From Candidatus Treponema caballi (GTDB lineage: Bacteria; Spirochaetota; Spirochaetia; Treponematales; Treponemataceae), in contig JAGHRS010000003.1 of the NCBI GenBank assembly GCA_018066285.1, positions 62,001-126,000 on the forward strand: a DNA stretch of 64,000 nt, read 5' to 3'. Positions 12,020 through 63,432 of the stretch are shown piece after piece. Below the pieces are notes generated by a model. That model ran no database searches. It had not been told where the DNA came from and saw only the letters and a list, made by a program, of their open reading frames with translations. The position numbers and the translations under genes are program-made. How positions within the stretch are numbered: the first letter of the stretch is position 1; the number at the start of each line of letters is the position of its first letter.

Positions 12020-12110
12020 CTATTTGCAGTAACGTTAATTTTAATAAAGATATACAGATAATCACAATTTTTTCCTAGCGAAAAATACCTTTTTCCTTGA
12101 TACTGTAAAC

Positions 12111-21925: not shown

Positions 21926-21956
21926 AGTATGAGTATATCACAAAATCTGAGGCTTA

Positions 21957-22730: not shown

Positions 22731-22747
22731 ACAAGACAGTATAGCAC

Positions 22748-25555: not shown

Positions 25556-26503
25556 TTACAGCATCATTGAAAGCGTTACAACAAGCGGCATCGTCAGAAT
25601 AGAGAACAGCGTCGACACCGAGACCATCGTGACAGCGAGCTTTTCGTCGCGGCCATATAAAACAGCGAACATGGCGGTGTTGGCGCCGGTCGGTGCGCTT
25701 GCCGCAATGATCATGGCGCTCAGCACGATACCCGAAAGACCTGCGAGACGGAAGCACACAAGAGAGATGAGCGGAGAAGCCAGCAGGCGCAGGAACAGAT
25801 GCAGGATGAACTGCTTATCCTTCAGGATTTTGAGGCTCGTGATGCCAGCAAGATAATGGCCGATAATGAGCATCGGAACCGGCGTATTGAGCGCTGCGAG
25901 ATGACCGACAGGAGCTGCCACCAGGGATGGCAGGCGGATTGGCGAGATGAAGAGCGCGACGCCCAGGAACACGGCGATGATGCCCGGATTCAAGAGGATT
26001 TTACCGACAGTGAACTTTTCCTTGTCGCCGGCAATAAGCGTCAGGCCGTATGTCCAGGCGAACAGGTTGAACACAGCGATGTAGGCCGCGCCGTAGAAAA
26101 CGCCGTCAGGACCGAGCACCGCCTGCTGCAGCGGGATGGCCATATAGCCGCAGTTACAGAAAATCGTACCGAAACGGAGGACGCGCCATCTGTTTTCATC
26201 AGGCGTTGCGCCGTTCTTGCGTGCTTTTGCCGGATATGCGAACTTCGCGATGAAAATGCAGAGCACGTGCGTGAAAGCTGCAGCCAGCACAGAAAGCCCA
26301 AGTCCACGGAGCATATCCTGGTCGAAGTCGCGGTCAAATGACTGGATGATGACGCACGGTGTAACGATGTAAAGTGCGATGAACGCGAGGCTCTTCACGC
26401 TCTCATCCGTGAGCTTTTTCAGCTTGCTTAAAAAGAAGCCGACGGCCATCAGGATGAAGAGGATGAGCACCTGCTGTGAAACTGCAAGAAAGCTTTCTGT
26501 CAT
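25556..26503 (-). CDS. AEC-family transporter (auxin efflux carrier-like)
   Basis: 315 residues with about ten membrane helices in two five-helix halves, as in the auxin efflux carrier/malate permease family. Recognisable stretches are MAVGFFLSKL, FGTIFCNCGYMAIPL (broken helix of the first half) and SAMIIAASAPTGANTAMFAV (broken helix of the second half). Bacterial members move dicarboxylates or other small anions; the substrate is not evident. It is divergent from the ABC-F gene with only 50 bp between starts. TATAGT lies 8 bp before the ATG and no ribosome binding site is seen. Confidence 0.88.
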   Translation of the reverse strand: MTESFLAVSQQVLILFILMAVGFFLSKLKKLTDESVKSLAFIALYIVTPCVIIQSFDRDFDQDMLRGLGLSVLAAAFTHVLCIFIAKFAYPAKARKNGATPDENRWRVLRFGTIFCNCGYMAIPLQQAVLGPDGVFYGAAYIAVFNLFAWTYGLTLIAGDKEKFTVGKILLNPGIIAVFLGVALFISPIRLPSLVAAPVGHLAALNTPVPMLIIGHYLAGITSLKILKDKQFILHLFLRLLASPLISLVCFRLAGLSGIVLSAMIIAASAPTGANTAMFAVLYGRDEKLAVTMVSVSTLFSILTMPLVVTLSMML

Positions 26504-26553
26504 GCTTTCATACTATACCGAATGAGCATTCTTTACTATACTAATTTTATTAT

Positions 26554-28602
26554 ATGACTATCTTATCCGTAAAAGACCTGGCCAAGATGGGCCGCGACAA
26601 ATCACTTTTCTCTGACGTTACCTTCGGTCTTGAAGAAGGAGACAAAGCCGCACTCATCGGACGGAACGGCACTGGTAAGTCTACGATGCTGCTCTGCATT
26701 GCAGGCCTTTTAACCCCGGATAACGGAACGGCGGTTTTCAACAGCCAGGCGGGCGTTTCCTTTCTGCCCCAGAATCCTGAATACAACCCTGAGCACACTA
26801 TCCGCGAGCATATCTTCATGTCACGCGACGCCCGCGAACACGCTGCCGGCATGCAGGCCCAGGTTACTGAAACAAGTCCCAAGCTTTCGATTATCCACGA
26901 GTACGAAGAGTTGTGCGCCCGTCTCGCAGAAGCCGGCAGAGAAGACGACCAGCGGCTTCATCAGCGCTTTGAGTACGTCAGCCATCTGATGAACGACAAG
27001 GACCTGTGGACATACGAGGCAGAAGTCAAATCAATCCTCACCACGCTTGGCATAAGCGCTGAGTCGGGCGCGCTCGACAGGAAGATGAAGGAGCTTTCTG
27101 GCGGCATGATCAAGAAAGTCGCCCTCGCCCAGGTTCTTGTTGAAGACACCAAGCTTCTGCTTCTCGACGAGCCGACGAACCACCTGGATATCCGCACCAT
27201 CACCTGGCTTGAGGATTATCTCAGAAACACGAAACGCTCGGTGCTCATGGTAACGCATGACCGCTACTTCCTTGACAGCGTGTGCAGCACGATTTACGAG
27301 CTTGAGCACGGTAAGTTCAACAAGTACGTTGGCAACTTCAGCACATACCTTGAGAAAAAGCAGACTGAGCTTGAGATTGCACAGAATACCGAGCGCCGCA
27401 TTGAGTCGGTATTGCGTGTGGAACGCGACTGGCTCATGAGGGGACCGTGCGCCCGCGGAACAAAGGCCCGCGCCCGTGTGGACAACATCCACCGCATGAT
27501 AAACCGCGAGAAGCTTCAGAAGGATAAGGGCTTCACGTTTGAGGTTGTGGGCCGCCGGCTTGGCGGAAAGATTCTTGAAGCGCACGAGATAAGCAAGAAC
27601 TACGTGAAAGCAGGCTCATCCGGGGGGACGAGCGTCATCGCTGACTTCTCATACATGTTCAAGAAAGGAGAGAGAATCGGCATTTTCGGCGACAACGGCA
27701 CCGGAAAGTCGACACTCCTCAACATGCTTACAGGCGCTCTCGCTCCTGATTCAGGCAGCGTTGAGAAAGGCCTTAACACGGTGTTCGGCTATTACCAGCA
27801 GAATCCCGTTTTCGCCGACACTTCGCTTACCGTAACTGAGTATCTGAAAGAAGCTGCTGAGTACGTTACACGCAACGACGGCAAGACACTGAGCGCCGGC
27901 CAGCTGCTCGAGGAGTTCGGCTTTGAAGGCCGCATCCTGCACTCAGCGGTCTCCACCCTTTCTGGCGGCGAACGGAAGCGGCTCTTCCTCATCCGCCTGC
28001 TTCTTTCAAACCCAAACTTTCTTGTGCTTGATGAGCCGACAAACGATTTTGACATTTTCACCATGTCCATCCTTGAGTCGTTCCTTGAAACGTATCAGGG
28101 CTGCATCCTGGTGGTCAGCCACGACCGCTGCTTCATGGACAAGGTCGCGGATACGCTTTTCATCCTTGAAGACGACGGCTCTGTCAGCGGATATGTGGGA
28201 AAGTGCACCGAGTACCTGGATTACCTGAAGGAATGCGAGGCGGAGAAAGCGGCAGCGGCCCGGGAATCTGCTTCGAAGAGCGGGGCCGAAAACAAGGCAT
28301 CGTCTGCTTCCAAGACAGCGGGCGCATCCGCTTCCGGCAGCGTGTCGGAGAATCAGGCATCAGACGCTTCCAAGGCAAAGCCCCGAAAGCGCACGTTCAA
28401 GGAACAGAAAGAGTTCGACGGCATAGAAGACGAGATTTTCGCCCTCGAAGCGCGGAAGGAAGAGCTTGAGGCGCTGCTTTCAGGTGGTGAGAGCGACCAC
28501 ACAAAGCTTGCTGATTACGGCAGGGAATACGCGGCGCTCACTCCGCAGATTGACGAAAAGTACGCGCGCTGGGAAGAGCTCGGCGCTCTTGAAGAATACT
28601 AG
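26554..28602 (+). CDS. ABC-F ATPase, Uup-like
   Basis: 682 residues with two ABC cassettes and no membrane segments, the plan of ABC-F proteins that act on ribosomes or DNA intermediates. Cassette 1: GRNGTGKST, LSGGMIKKVALAQVL, LLLLDEPTNHLD. Cassette 2: GDNGTGKST, LSGGERKRLFLIRLL, LVLDEPTNDFD. The inter-cassette linker (RVERDWLMRGPCARGTKARA) is of the Uup/EttA type. After cassette 2 comes an Ala/Ser-rich low-complexity stretch (~555-605), then a Uup-like coiled-coil tail (EQKEFDGIEDEIFALEARKE). TATACT lies 11 bp before the ATG without a Shine-Dalgarno. The stop overlaps the ribosome binding site of the methyltransferase gene. Confidence 0.93.
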   Translation: MTILSVKDLAKMGRDKSLFSDVTFGLEEGDKAALIGRNGTGKSTMLLCIAGLLTPDNGTAVFNSQAGVSFLPQNPEYNPEHTIREHIFMSRDAREHAAGMQAQVTETSPKLSIIHEYEELCARLAEAGREDDQRLHQRFEYVSHLMNDKDLWTYEAEVKSILTTLGISAESGALDRKMKELSGGMIKKVALAQVLVEDTKLLLLDEPTNHLDIRTITWLEDYLRNTKRSVLMVTHDRYFLDSVCSTIYELEHGKFNKYVGNFSTYLEKKQTELEIAQNTERRIESVLRVERDWLMRGPCARGTKARARVDNIHRMINREKLQKDKGFTFEVVGRRLGGKILEAHEISKNYVKAGSSGGTSVIADFSYMFKKGERIGIFGDNGTGKSTLLNMLTGALAPDSGSVEKGLNTVFGYYQQNPVFADTSLTVTEYLKEAAEYVTRNDGKTLSAGQLLEEFGFEGRILHSAVSTLSGGERKRLFLIRLLLSNPNFLVLDEPTNDFDIFTMSILESFLETYQGCILVVSHDRCFMDKVADTLFILEDDGSVSGYVGKCTEYLDYLKECEAEKAAAARESASKSGAENKASSASKTAGASASGSVSENQASDASKAKPRKRTFKEQKEFDGIEDEIFALEARKEELEALLSGGESDHTKLADYGREYAALTPQIDEKYARWEELGALEEY

Positions 28603-45494: not shown

Positions 45495-45589
45495 ACTTAC
45501 AAGATACGCTGAAAACCGGCGGAAGGAAAGAAAAAACGCCCGCACACCTTGAAAGCGCACGCCCGCACGCGCTACTATGAGCCATATAT

Positions 45590-51322: not shown

Positions 51323-51379
51323 GATTTCAGTATAACACACTGCTTTCTGTTTATCAGTCGGGGGATATCCCCAATCCGT

Positions 51380-52715: not shown

Positions 52716-52745
52716 TTTACACAAAACCCCGCGCGGGTGTATTTT
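52716..52745 (+). promoter_or_regulatory. Promoter placed directly on the MATE start codon
   Basis: TTTACA (52716-52721), an 18-bp spacer and TATTTT (52740-52745), then only 6 bp to the ATG at 52752. Transcription would begin at or within the start codon, a leaderless arrangement. Confidence 0.6.
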
Positions 52746-52751
52746 GGCCGT

Positions 52752-54089
52752 ATGACTAAGGATTTGACTGAGGGCAGGCCTCTGCCGCTCATCTTAAGTT
52801 TTTCGCTGCCGGTTATGATGGGCTTTCTTTTCCAGCAGCTGTACAATGTTGTGGATACCGTCATCGTAGGCCAGATTCTGGGCAAGGGCGCGCTGGCGGC
52901 AGTCGGTTCCACAGGCTCTGTCAACTTCCTGATTCTGGGCTTCTGCAACGGCGTCACCAACGGTTTTGCACTGCCTATTGCGCAGAAGTTCGGCGCAAAA
53001 GACTACCGCACGATGCGGCAGTTCCTCTTCATGAACGCCGTGCTTTCCATTGTGATTGCCGCCATCGTGACGACACTGACCGTCATTCTCTGTAAGCCGC
53101 TTCTGCTTCTCATGATGACACCGCCCGACATCGTGGATGACGCAGTTCTCTACATCCGCATCATATTCGCGGGCATTCCGGCAACGTTCCTGTACAACAC
53201 GCTCGCCAACACACTGCGCTCAGTCGGTGACAGCCGCACGCCGCTCATCTTCCTTATCATTTCTTCCGTCCTCAACATAGGGCTCGACCTGCTGTTTATT
53301 CTTGTCTTCGGACTCGGCGTGCAGGGAGCGGCGATTGCTACCGTGCTCGCCCAGCTTCTGTCAGGCATTGCGTGTTTCATCTATATGCGGAAGAAGTTCG
53401 AGATCCTGCATCTTTCAAAGGATGACCGTAAGTTCCGTCCGCAGCATATCGGCCCGCTTTGCAACATGGGTCTTCCAATGGGCTTTCAGTACTCGATTAC
53501 CGCTATCGGAAGCGTCATCCTGCAGTCTTCAATAAACGGGCTGGGCTCTGATGCTGTCGCAGCGTTCGCGGCTGCCATAAAGATTCACATGGTTTTCTGC
53601 ATTGTCTTTGATTCAATGGGAACGACGATGGGCACCTGGAGTGGCCAGAACACGGGCGCGAAAAAGTTCGACCGGCTCTGGTCAGGCGTGCGCGACGCAA
53701 GCCTGCTCTGTCTCGCCTACTCATGCGTGATTTTTGCGTTCAACTGCTTTTTCGGGGATAAACTCGGCCTGCTTTTCCTAAGCAACCCGGGCGAGGAAAT
53801 CCTGACGAACATCCACCACTTCCTGATGGCGAACAGCGGCTTCTACTTCCCGCTCGCGCTGGTGAACATCATCCGCTTCTCGATTCAGGGCATGGGCTAT
53901 TCTAAGCTCGCCGTAACATCCGGCGTCCTTGAGATGGTCGCCCGCGCGCTCACCGGCTTATTCCTGGTGCCTGCGTTCGGCTTCATCGCAGTATGTTTTG
54001 CATCGCCACTCGCCTGGATTTTAGCCATCGCGTTCCTGATTCCGGCGTTCTTCCTGTGTAAGCGCGCTCTGGAGAAGCAGTCTCAGTAA
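52752..54089 (+). CDS. MATE-family efflux transporter
   Basis: 445 residues from the ATG at 52752; the frame extends 44 codons upstream but through promoter-like sequence. Twelve membrane helices in two similar halves: PLILSFSLPVMMGFLFQQLYNVVDTVIVGQ-type start of the N-lobe with GKGALAAVGS, and the C-lobe start FQYSITAIGSVILQSSINGL. These are features of NorM/DinF-like MATE proteins, which export cationic drugs or metabolites using Na+ or H+. No regulator is adjacent. It is divergent from tyrS and convergent with nfo. Substrate unknown. Confidence 0.92.
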   Translation: MTKDLTEGRPLPLILSFSLPVMMGFLFQQLYNVVDTVIVGQILGKGALAAVGSTGSVNFLILGFCNGVTNGFALPIAQKFGAKDYRTMRQFLFMNAVLSIVIAAIVTTLTVILCKPLLLLMMTPPDIVDDAVLYIRIIFAGIPATFLYNTLANTLRSVGDSRTPLIFLIISSVLNIGLDLLFILVFGLGVQGAAIATVLAQLLSGIACFIYMRKKFEILHLSKDDRKFRPQHIGPLCNMGLPMGFQYSITAIGSVILQSSINGLGSDAVAAFAAAIKIHMVFCIVFDSMGTTMGTWSGQNTGAKKFDRLWSGVRDASLLCLAYSCVIFAFNCFFGDKLGLLFLSNPGEEILTNIHHFLMANSGFYFPLALVNIIRFSIQGMGYSKLAVTSGVLEMVARALTGLFLVPAFGFIAVCFASPLAWILAIAFLIPAFFLCKRALEKQSQ

Positions 54090-57821: not shown

Positions 57822-57837
57822 AGTCCCCACAGTCGGA

Positions 57838-57867
57838 ATTATACCACAGCAAAAACGCTTATGGTAA
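57838..57867 (-). promoter_or_regulatory. Promoter of the hybrid kinase-nfo operon
   Basis: On the minus strand TTACCA (57867-57862) and TATAAT (57843-57838) are 18 bp apart, with ~16 bp to the kinase ATG that include GGGGA. Confidence 0.6.
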
Positions 57868-58972: not shown

Positions 58973-59002
58973 TTGCAATACTACTATATACAGCATTATA
59001 AT
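58973..59002 (+). promoter_or_regulatory. Promoter of the HD-GYP gene
   Basis: TTGCAA (58973-58978), an 18-bp spacer and consensus TATAAT (58997-59002). The ATG at 59012 is only 9 bp further on, so the message would have almost no leader; GAGAAG in this interval could not act fully as a ribosome binding site. Confidence 0.65.
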
Positions 59003-63417: not shown

Positions 63418-63432
63418 AGTACCTGAAGTATA

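Follow-up and report, generated by a model that had tools for sequence, protein, structure and literature searches.

Promoters set on start codons: a candidate leaderless gene class beside Shine-Dalgarno genes in Candidatus Treponema caballi

Introduction

In Candidatus Treponema caballi, the gene for a MATE transporter is preceded by a -10-like hexamer that ends 6 nucleotides before its ATG, which raises the question of whether its message begins at the start codon itself, and whether many other genes of this genome are arranged in the same way. Leaderless genes are already known in other bacteria. An earlier note on the window (the whole stretch of DNA analyzed, 64,000 nucleotides at 62001-126000 of a contig in a 2.91-Mb, 75-contig genome) had listed nine genes with such a hexamer 6 to 9 bp before the start codon and no Shine-Dalgarno (SD) sequence, and had suggested that leaderless messages are widespread here beside ordinary SD genes.

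Results

The nine promoter-like sites of the window differ in strength

All nine hexamers are present in the window at the spacings described, and the TTTACA placed 18 bp further up from the MATE hexamer lies at 52716-52721. Within the 16 nt that precede the start, none of the nine sites (0/9) matches an SD over four bases; rlmJ has AGG and the HD-GYP gene GAG. Pfam confirmed the products (MatE, FGE-sulfatase, SH3_3, TPR, thioredoxin, EAL, Mem_trans, RsmJ/RlmJ, and HD). The features are given below with one additional candidate; scores are those of a -10 matrix with a threshold of 5, a value reached by 1.35% of out-of-frame control ATGs.

52716..52721, plus strand: -35-like TTTACA of the MATE gene, 18 bp before the -10, 5/6 match to TTGACA
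52740..52745, plus strand: -10-like TATTTT of the MATE gene, 6 nt before the ATG, score 6.2
52752..54089, plus strand: MATE transporter, ATG at the predicted +1, Pfam MatE 9e-45, M1 aligned in family and clostridial relatives
21932..21937, minus strand: -10 TATACT of the SUMF1/FGE gene, 6 nt before start 21925, TGn-extended
22738..22743, minus strand: -10 TATACT of the SH3 gene (Pfam SH3_3), 7 nt before start 22730, score 9.1
51329..51334, minus strand: -10 TATACT of the TPR lipoprotein gene, 6 nt before start 51322, score 9.6, with -35 CTGATA at 17 bp
45501..45506, minus strand: -10-like TATCTT of trxA, 6 nt before start 45494, a weak hexamer, score 1.4
12099..12104, plus strand: GATACT of the EAL gene, 6 nt before proposed start 12111, not supported
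26512..26517, minus strand: -10 TATAGT of the AEC gene, 8 nt before start 26503, score 4.9 against the threshold of 5
63427..63432, minus strand: -10 TATACT of rlmJ, 9 nt before start 63417, score 7.1
58997..59002, plus strand: -10 TATAAT of the HD-GYP gene, 9 nt before start 59012, score 6.0, with -35 TTGCAA at 18 bp
57838..57843, minus strand: additional candidate TATAAT, 7 nt before a putative GTG start at 57830, score 8.0

The nine sites are therefore unequal: the MATE, SH3, TPR, rlmJ, and HD-GYP hexamers lie above the threshold, that of AEC falls just below it, and that of trxA is weak. The SUMF1 gene was missed by the gene caller, yet it has a Pfam FGE-sulfatase match and a perfect TATACT at 6 nt. 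For the EAL gene, the proposal of a leaderless start found no support, as GATACT is a weak hexamer and the start is uncertain (the gene caller preferred 12207).

The AEC transporter gene (minus strand) and a 682-aa open reading frame (plus strand) have starts 50 bp apart (26503-26554). Their -10-like elements face each other and overlap (TATAGT for the minus strand; TATACT and TAATTT for the plus strand), one short stretch being common to both promoters.

The -10 hexamer is in excess at 6 and 7 nucleotides before genuine reading frames

We analyzed 1.07 Mb of the genome as stretches, in which a simple gene caller based on a dicodon model gave 856 gene starts, and compared in-frame ATGs with out-of-frame ATGs from the same regions. 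TATACT was found before in-frame ATGs 32 times at a spacing of 6 and 13 times at a spacing of 7, with 0 to 4 occurrences at every other spacing, while only 0 to 1 were seen at spacings 6 and 7 before out-of-frame ATGs. TATAAT gave a smaller peak before in-frame ATGs (5, 6, 4, and 3 at spacings 6-9). Over the whole genome, TATACT-N6-ATG occurred 84 times versus 27 for the reversed pattern. On both controls, the genome-wide TATACT count, which had been proposed as a check on the idea, lies far above chance. When the pattern was loosened to TANACT at 4-8 nt before any ATG, no excess over the control was observed (439 versus 453); the signal requires the TATA core and exact spacing. GGAG, GAGG, and AGGA words peaked 5-9 nt before in-frame ATGs only, and thus an SD class coexists with the -10 layout.

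The range of 6 to 9 bp given in the earlier note was too wide, since TATACT is in excess at 6 and 7 nt only. It is likely, and compatible with the leaderless reading as a whole, that only the sites at 6-7 nt are truly leaderless and that those at 8-9 nt give leaders of 1-3 nt, perhaps translated by the same route, because the excess stops at 7; the choice of start point is flexible by 1-2 nt, which makes this boundary a soft one. The predicted leader would probably be 1-2 nt for AEC and 2-3 nt each for rlmJ and HD-GYP.

The candidate genes carry the anatomy of sigma-70 promoters and lie at operon heads

The -10 threshold was passed by 113/856 starts (13%; ~12 expected by chance), an SD of 4 or more bases was present at 472, confirming ordinary SD genes beside the -10 class, and 271 had neither signal, although the choice of starts behind the 113/472 split used the very signals counted, and the tests of spacing, orthologues, the congener described below, the -1 position, and the -35 box are less circular. 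A TANNNT-type signal thus occurs ~12 bp before the start more often than chance predicts, and the start region is without an SD, partly by construction; the mutual exclusion of the two signals is likewise partly built in because they occupy the same positions.

Among the 113 candidates, the spacing was 6 in 67, 7 in 34, 8 in 7, and 9 in 5. A -35-like hexamer with at least 4/6 matches was found at a 17-bp spacer in 35/113 and at 18 bp in 16, with ~4 at most other spacings; this sharp peak at 17-18 bp, with 53/113 having at least 4/6 matches, is that of a sigma-70 -35 box. TG was favored at -15/-14. Transcription starts follow a rule of pyrimidine at -1 and purine at +1. In agreement with its prediction, a pyrimidine was present at -1 in 101/113 candidates (89%; 97% at spacing 6) versus 281/472 SD genes (p 3e-10). 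The start codon was ATG in 108/113, and GTG/TTG starts showed no clear -10 excess. The candidates were divergent from the upstream neighbor in 60/113 cases versus 100/472 for SD genes, while 5/113 versus 182/472 abutted an upstream co-directional gene (p 6e-15), and are thus located at the heads of transcription units (operons).

These features bear on a different reading, in which the genes have leaders but no SD and the AT-rich hexamer is an element for ribosomal protein S1 or of low structure rather than a promoter. Non-SD genes tend to be AT-rich between -20 and -10, a bias that has been taken in both senses (PMC5397173), but an S1 or compositional element would produce neither the 6-7 nt phasing nor a 17-bp spaced -35 box, and would not force a pyrimidine at -1; we consider this reading very improbable.

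We also considered TATACT as a -10 specific to leaderless genes and rejected it, as the leadered promoters of this genome also have TATACT as their most frequent -10, and an AT-rich congener uses TATAAT.

The start codons are shared with relatives

It is also very improbable that transcription starts at these ATGs and translation at a later in-frame SD codon, with short leaders and misplaced starts. Of the candidates, 10/113 do have an in-frame ATG with an SD within 50 codons, but this equals the rate among SD genes (37/472, no enrichment), relatives share the start codons (the MTKD of MATE in spirochaetes and clostridia; that of trxA in 23 relatives), and random promoters would lack phasing to in-frame ATGs. 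For 59/113 candidates, no alternative in-frame start exists upstream.

Family relatives and Clostridia begin the MATE protein at the same Met (MTKD). The clostridial relatives have AGGAGG-type sites at that start; the 13 closest family orthologues (54-64% identical) have no clear SD, and 8/13 have TANNNT 6-7 nt before the ATG (hexamers among the family orthologues are TATGTT, TATTTT, TATTGT, TAGTAT, or TAATAT). A horizontal transfer of the gene from Clostridia, where the first homologue search gave hits exclusively, was rejected when relatives in its own family proved closer (up to 64% versus 54-55%). This genome has six MATE-family matches (E up to 1e-40), and the copy in the window belongs to a subfamily that gut Clostridia also have, with identities of 54-55%.

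An SD-type signal is retained at the trxA start in nearly all of 23 relatives; it is missing in this genome (G000) and in one relative (G230), where TATACT stands at 6 nt. Because of this distribution, trxA looks like a recent switch from SD to leaderless despite its weak hexamer; the case rests on the orthologues more than on the hexamer. The trxA of genus g2 (G019 and G031; 2.8 Mb genome) has one in-frame TGA in the thioredoxin frame, the pattern that a selenocysteine thioredoxin of the T. denticola kind would show.

The layout is conserved in a congener, with genes that change class

In the congener G198 (1.5 Mb examined, GC 33.6%), TATAAT before in-frame ATGs had its peak at a spacing of exactly 6 (28 versus ~3), and a pyrimidine was present at -1 in 37/37 TATA(A/C)T-N6-ATG starts. 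Where orthologues had matching start codons, the leaderless layout was kept in G198 for 12/25 leaderless genes of G000, while the SD genes of G000 had the leaderless layout in 4/102 cases and kept the SD in 87/102 (p 7e-5). Six leaderless genes of G000 have an SD at the identical start codon in G198, and these codons are therefore real starts. Several genes, trxA included, thus appear from these alignments to switch between SD and leaderless initiation at a fixed start codon. Among congeners, rlmJ shows a mixture of SD and non-SD starts.

At one divergent gene pair (orthologues 85% and 58% identical), both -10 boxes lie within an inverted repeat, TATAGCA...TGCTATA, which is kept in G198 and is likely an operator over two predicted leaderless promoters.

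The layout is widespread in the class and missing from Borrelia-like genomes

The FlaA periplasmic flagellar sheath protein was found in 60/60 sampled genomes of the phylum, this one included, and in 0/14 controls, which places this organism among the spirochaetes. Distribution was measured by counting TATACT plus TATAAT at exactly 6 nt against the reversed pattern, a control that is imperfect for AT-rich genomes; by this measure 22/23 sampled genomes of the family lay above the control (totals 2418 versus 1031), as did nearly all genomes of the other sampled families of the class, f5 excepted. No excess was seen in f5, a Borrelia-like genus with genomes of 1.0-1.8 Mb (367 versus 440 reversed), or in a 1.1-Mb family member (8 versus 8), and no clear excess in five clostridial control genomes summed (186 versus 144).

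We lean, by a narrow margin, toward leaderless initiation being an ancient second start class, inherited throughout the treponeme-containing class of spirochaetes. In this view, single genes flip between SD and leaderless while keeping their start codon, and this second start class has disappeared, wholly or almost so, from Borrelia-like genomes and from the reduced 1.1-Mb treponeme-like genome.

No 16S rRNA gene was found in this assembly or in six congeners (seven assemblies), as is typical of metagenome-assembled genomes.

Discussion

Taken together, the 6-7 nt phasing, the -35 box at 17 bp, the -1 pyrimidine, the near-exclusive use of ATG, the location at unit heads, and the conservation bear out the proposal of widespread leaderless messages beside an SD class. 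The promoter-on-start geometry, its statistics, its conservation, and its location at operon heads are read directly from the genomes. We put at about 0.9 the probability that in ~12% of the genes an ordinary sigma-70 promoter places +1 on the A of the ATG, next to the SD class.

We hypothesize that the start point of a sigma-70 promoter would coincide with the A of the ATG and that the mRNA would begin with the start codon and have no leader. With the 5' end at the start codon, translation should start without SD pairing, and the 5'-terminal AUG would presumably be bound directly by 70S ribosomes, a route worked out in other bacteria; here the positions of the 5' ends and the use of this route are both inferred from sequence. 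Individual genes may have a second promoter further upstream. The second, larger class would initiate at normal SD sites, and is needed within operons because no promoter is at hand there.

If so, tools that seek an SD may misplace the start codons of ~1 gene in 8, and treponemes probably run two initiation routes that differ in their dependence on initiation factors. The class-switching orthologue pairs, with their fixed start codon, would be a natural experiment on the gain and loss of an initiation mode. In the literature searched, we found no map of transcription start sites for Treponema.

The layout resembles the TA-led genes described by Zheng et al. (2011), which have a TA-like -10 ~12 bp before the start with the consensus TANNNT, were read as leaderless, and likewise coexist with SD-led genes (PMC3160421). 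In that study, leaderless genes were predicted in 6/18 spirochaete genomes at 1.8-6.9% of genes, as against ~12% here, the percentages coming from different methods; the share reached 39% in Deinococcus-Thermus, larger than in the present genome, where SD genes dominate (PMC3160421). Differential RNA-seq of Leptospira interrogans, in the same phylum but on a distant spirochaete branch, gave ~440 mRNAs with leaders <10 nt, by experiment there and by sequence in our case (PMC5243855). The earlier view that two start classes would be notable for a spirochaete was thus partly pre-empted by these two studies (PMC3160421, PMC5243855). In Deinococcus and Mycobacterium, whose leaderless transcriptomes PMC5243855 cites, a -10 box is likewise set for transcription from the start codon. 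Beyond Zheng et al. (PMC3160421), the present analysis adds the almost exclusive use of ATG and a tracing through lineages in which Borrelia-like genomes are negative. What appears to be new here, on the genomes compared, is the higher share (~12% net of chance, by a different method), the persistence through the treponeme family, the absence from the Borrelia-like genus, the near-exclusive ATG, and orthologues that switch class.
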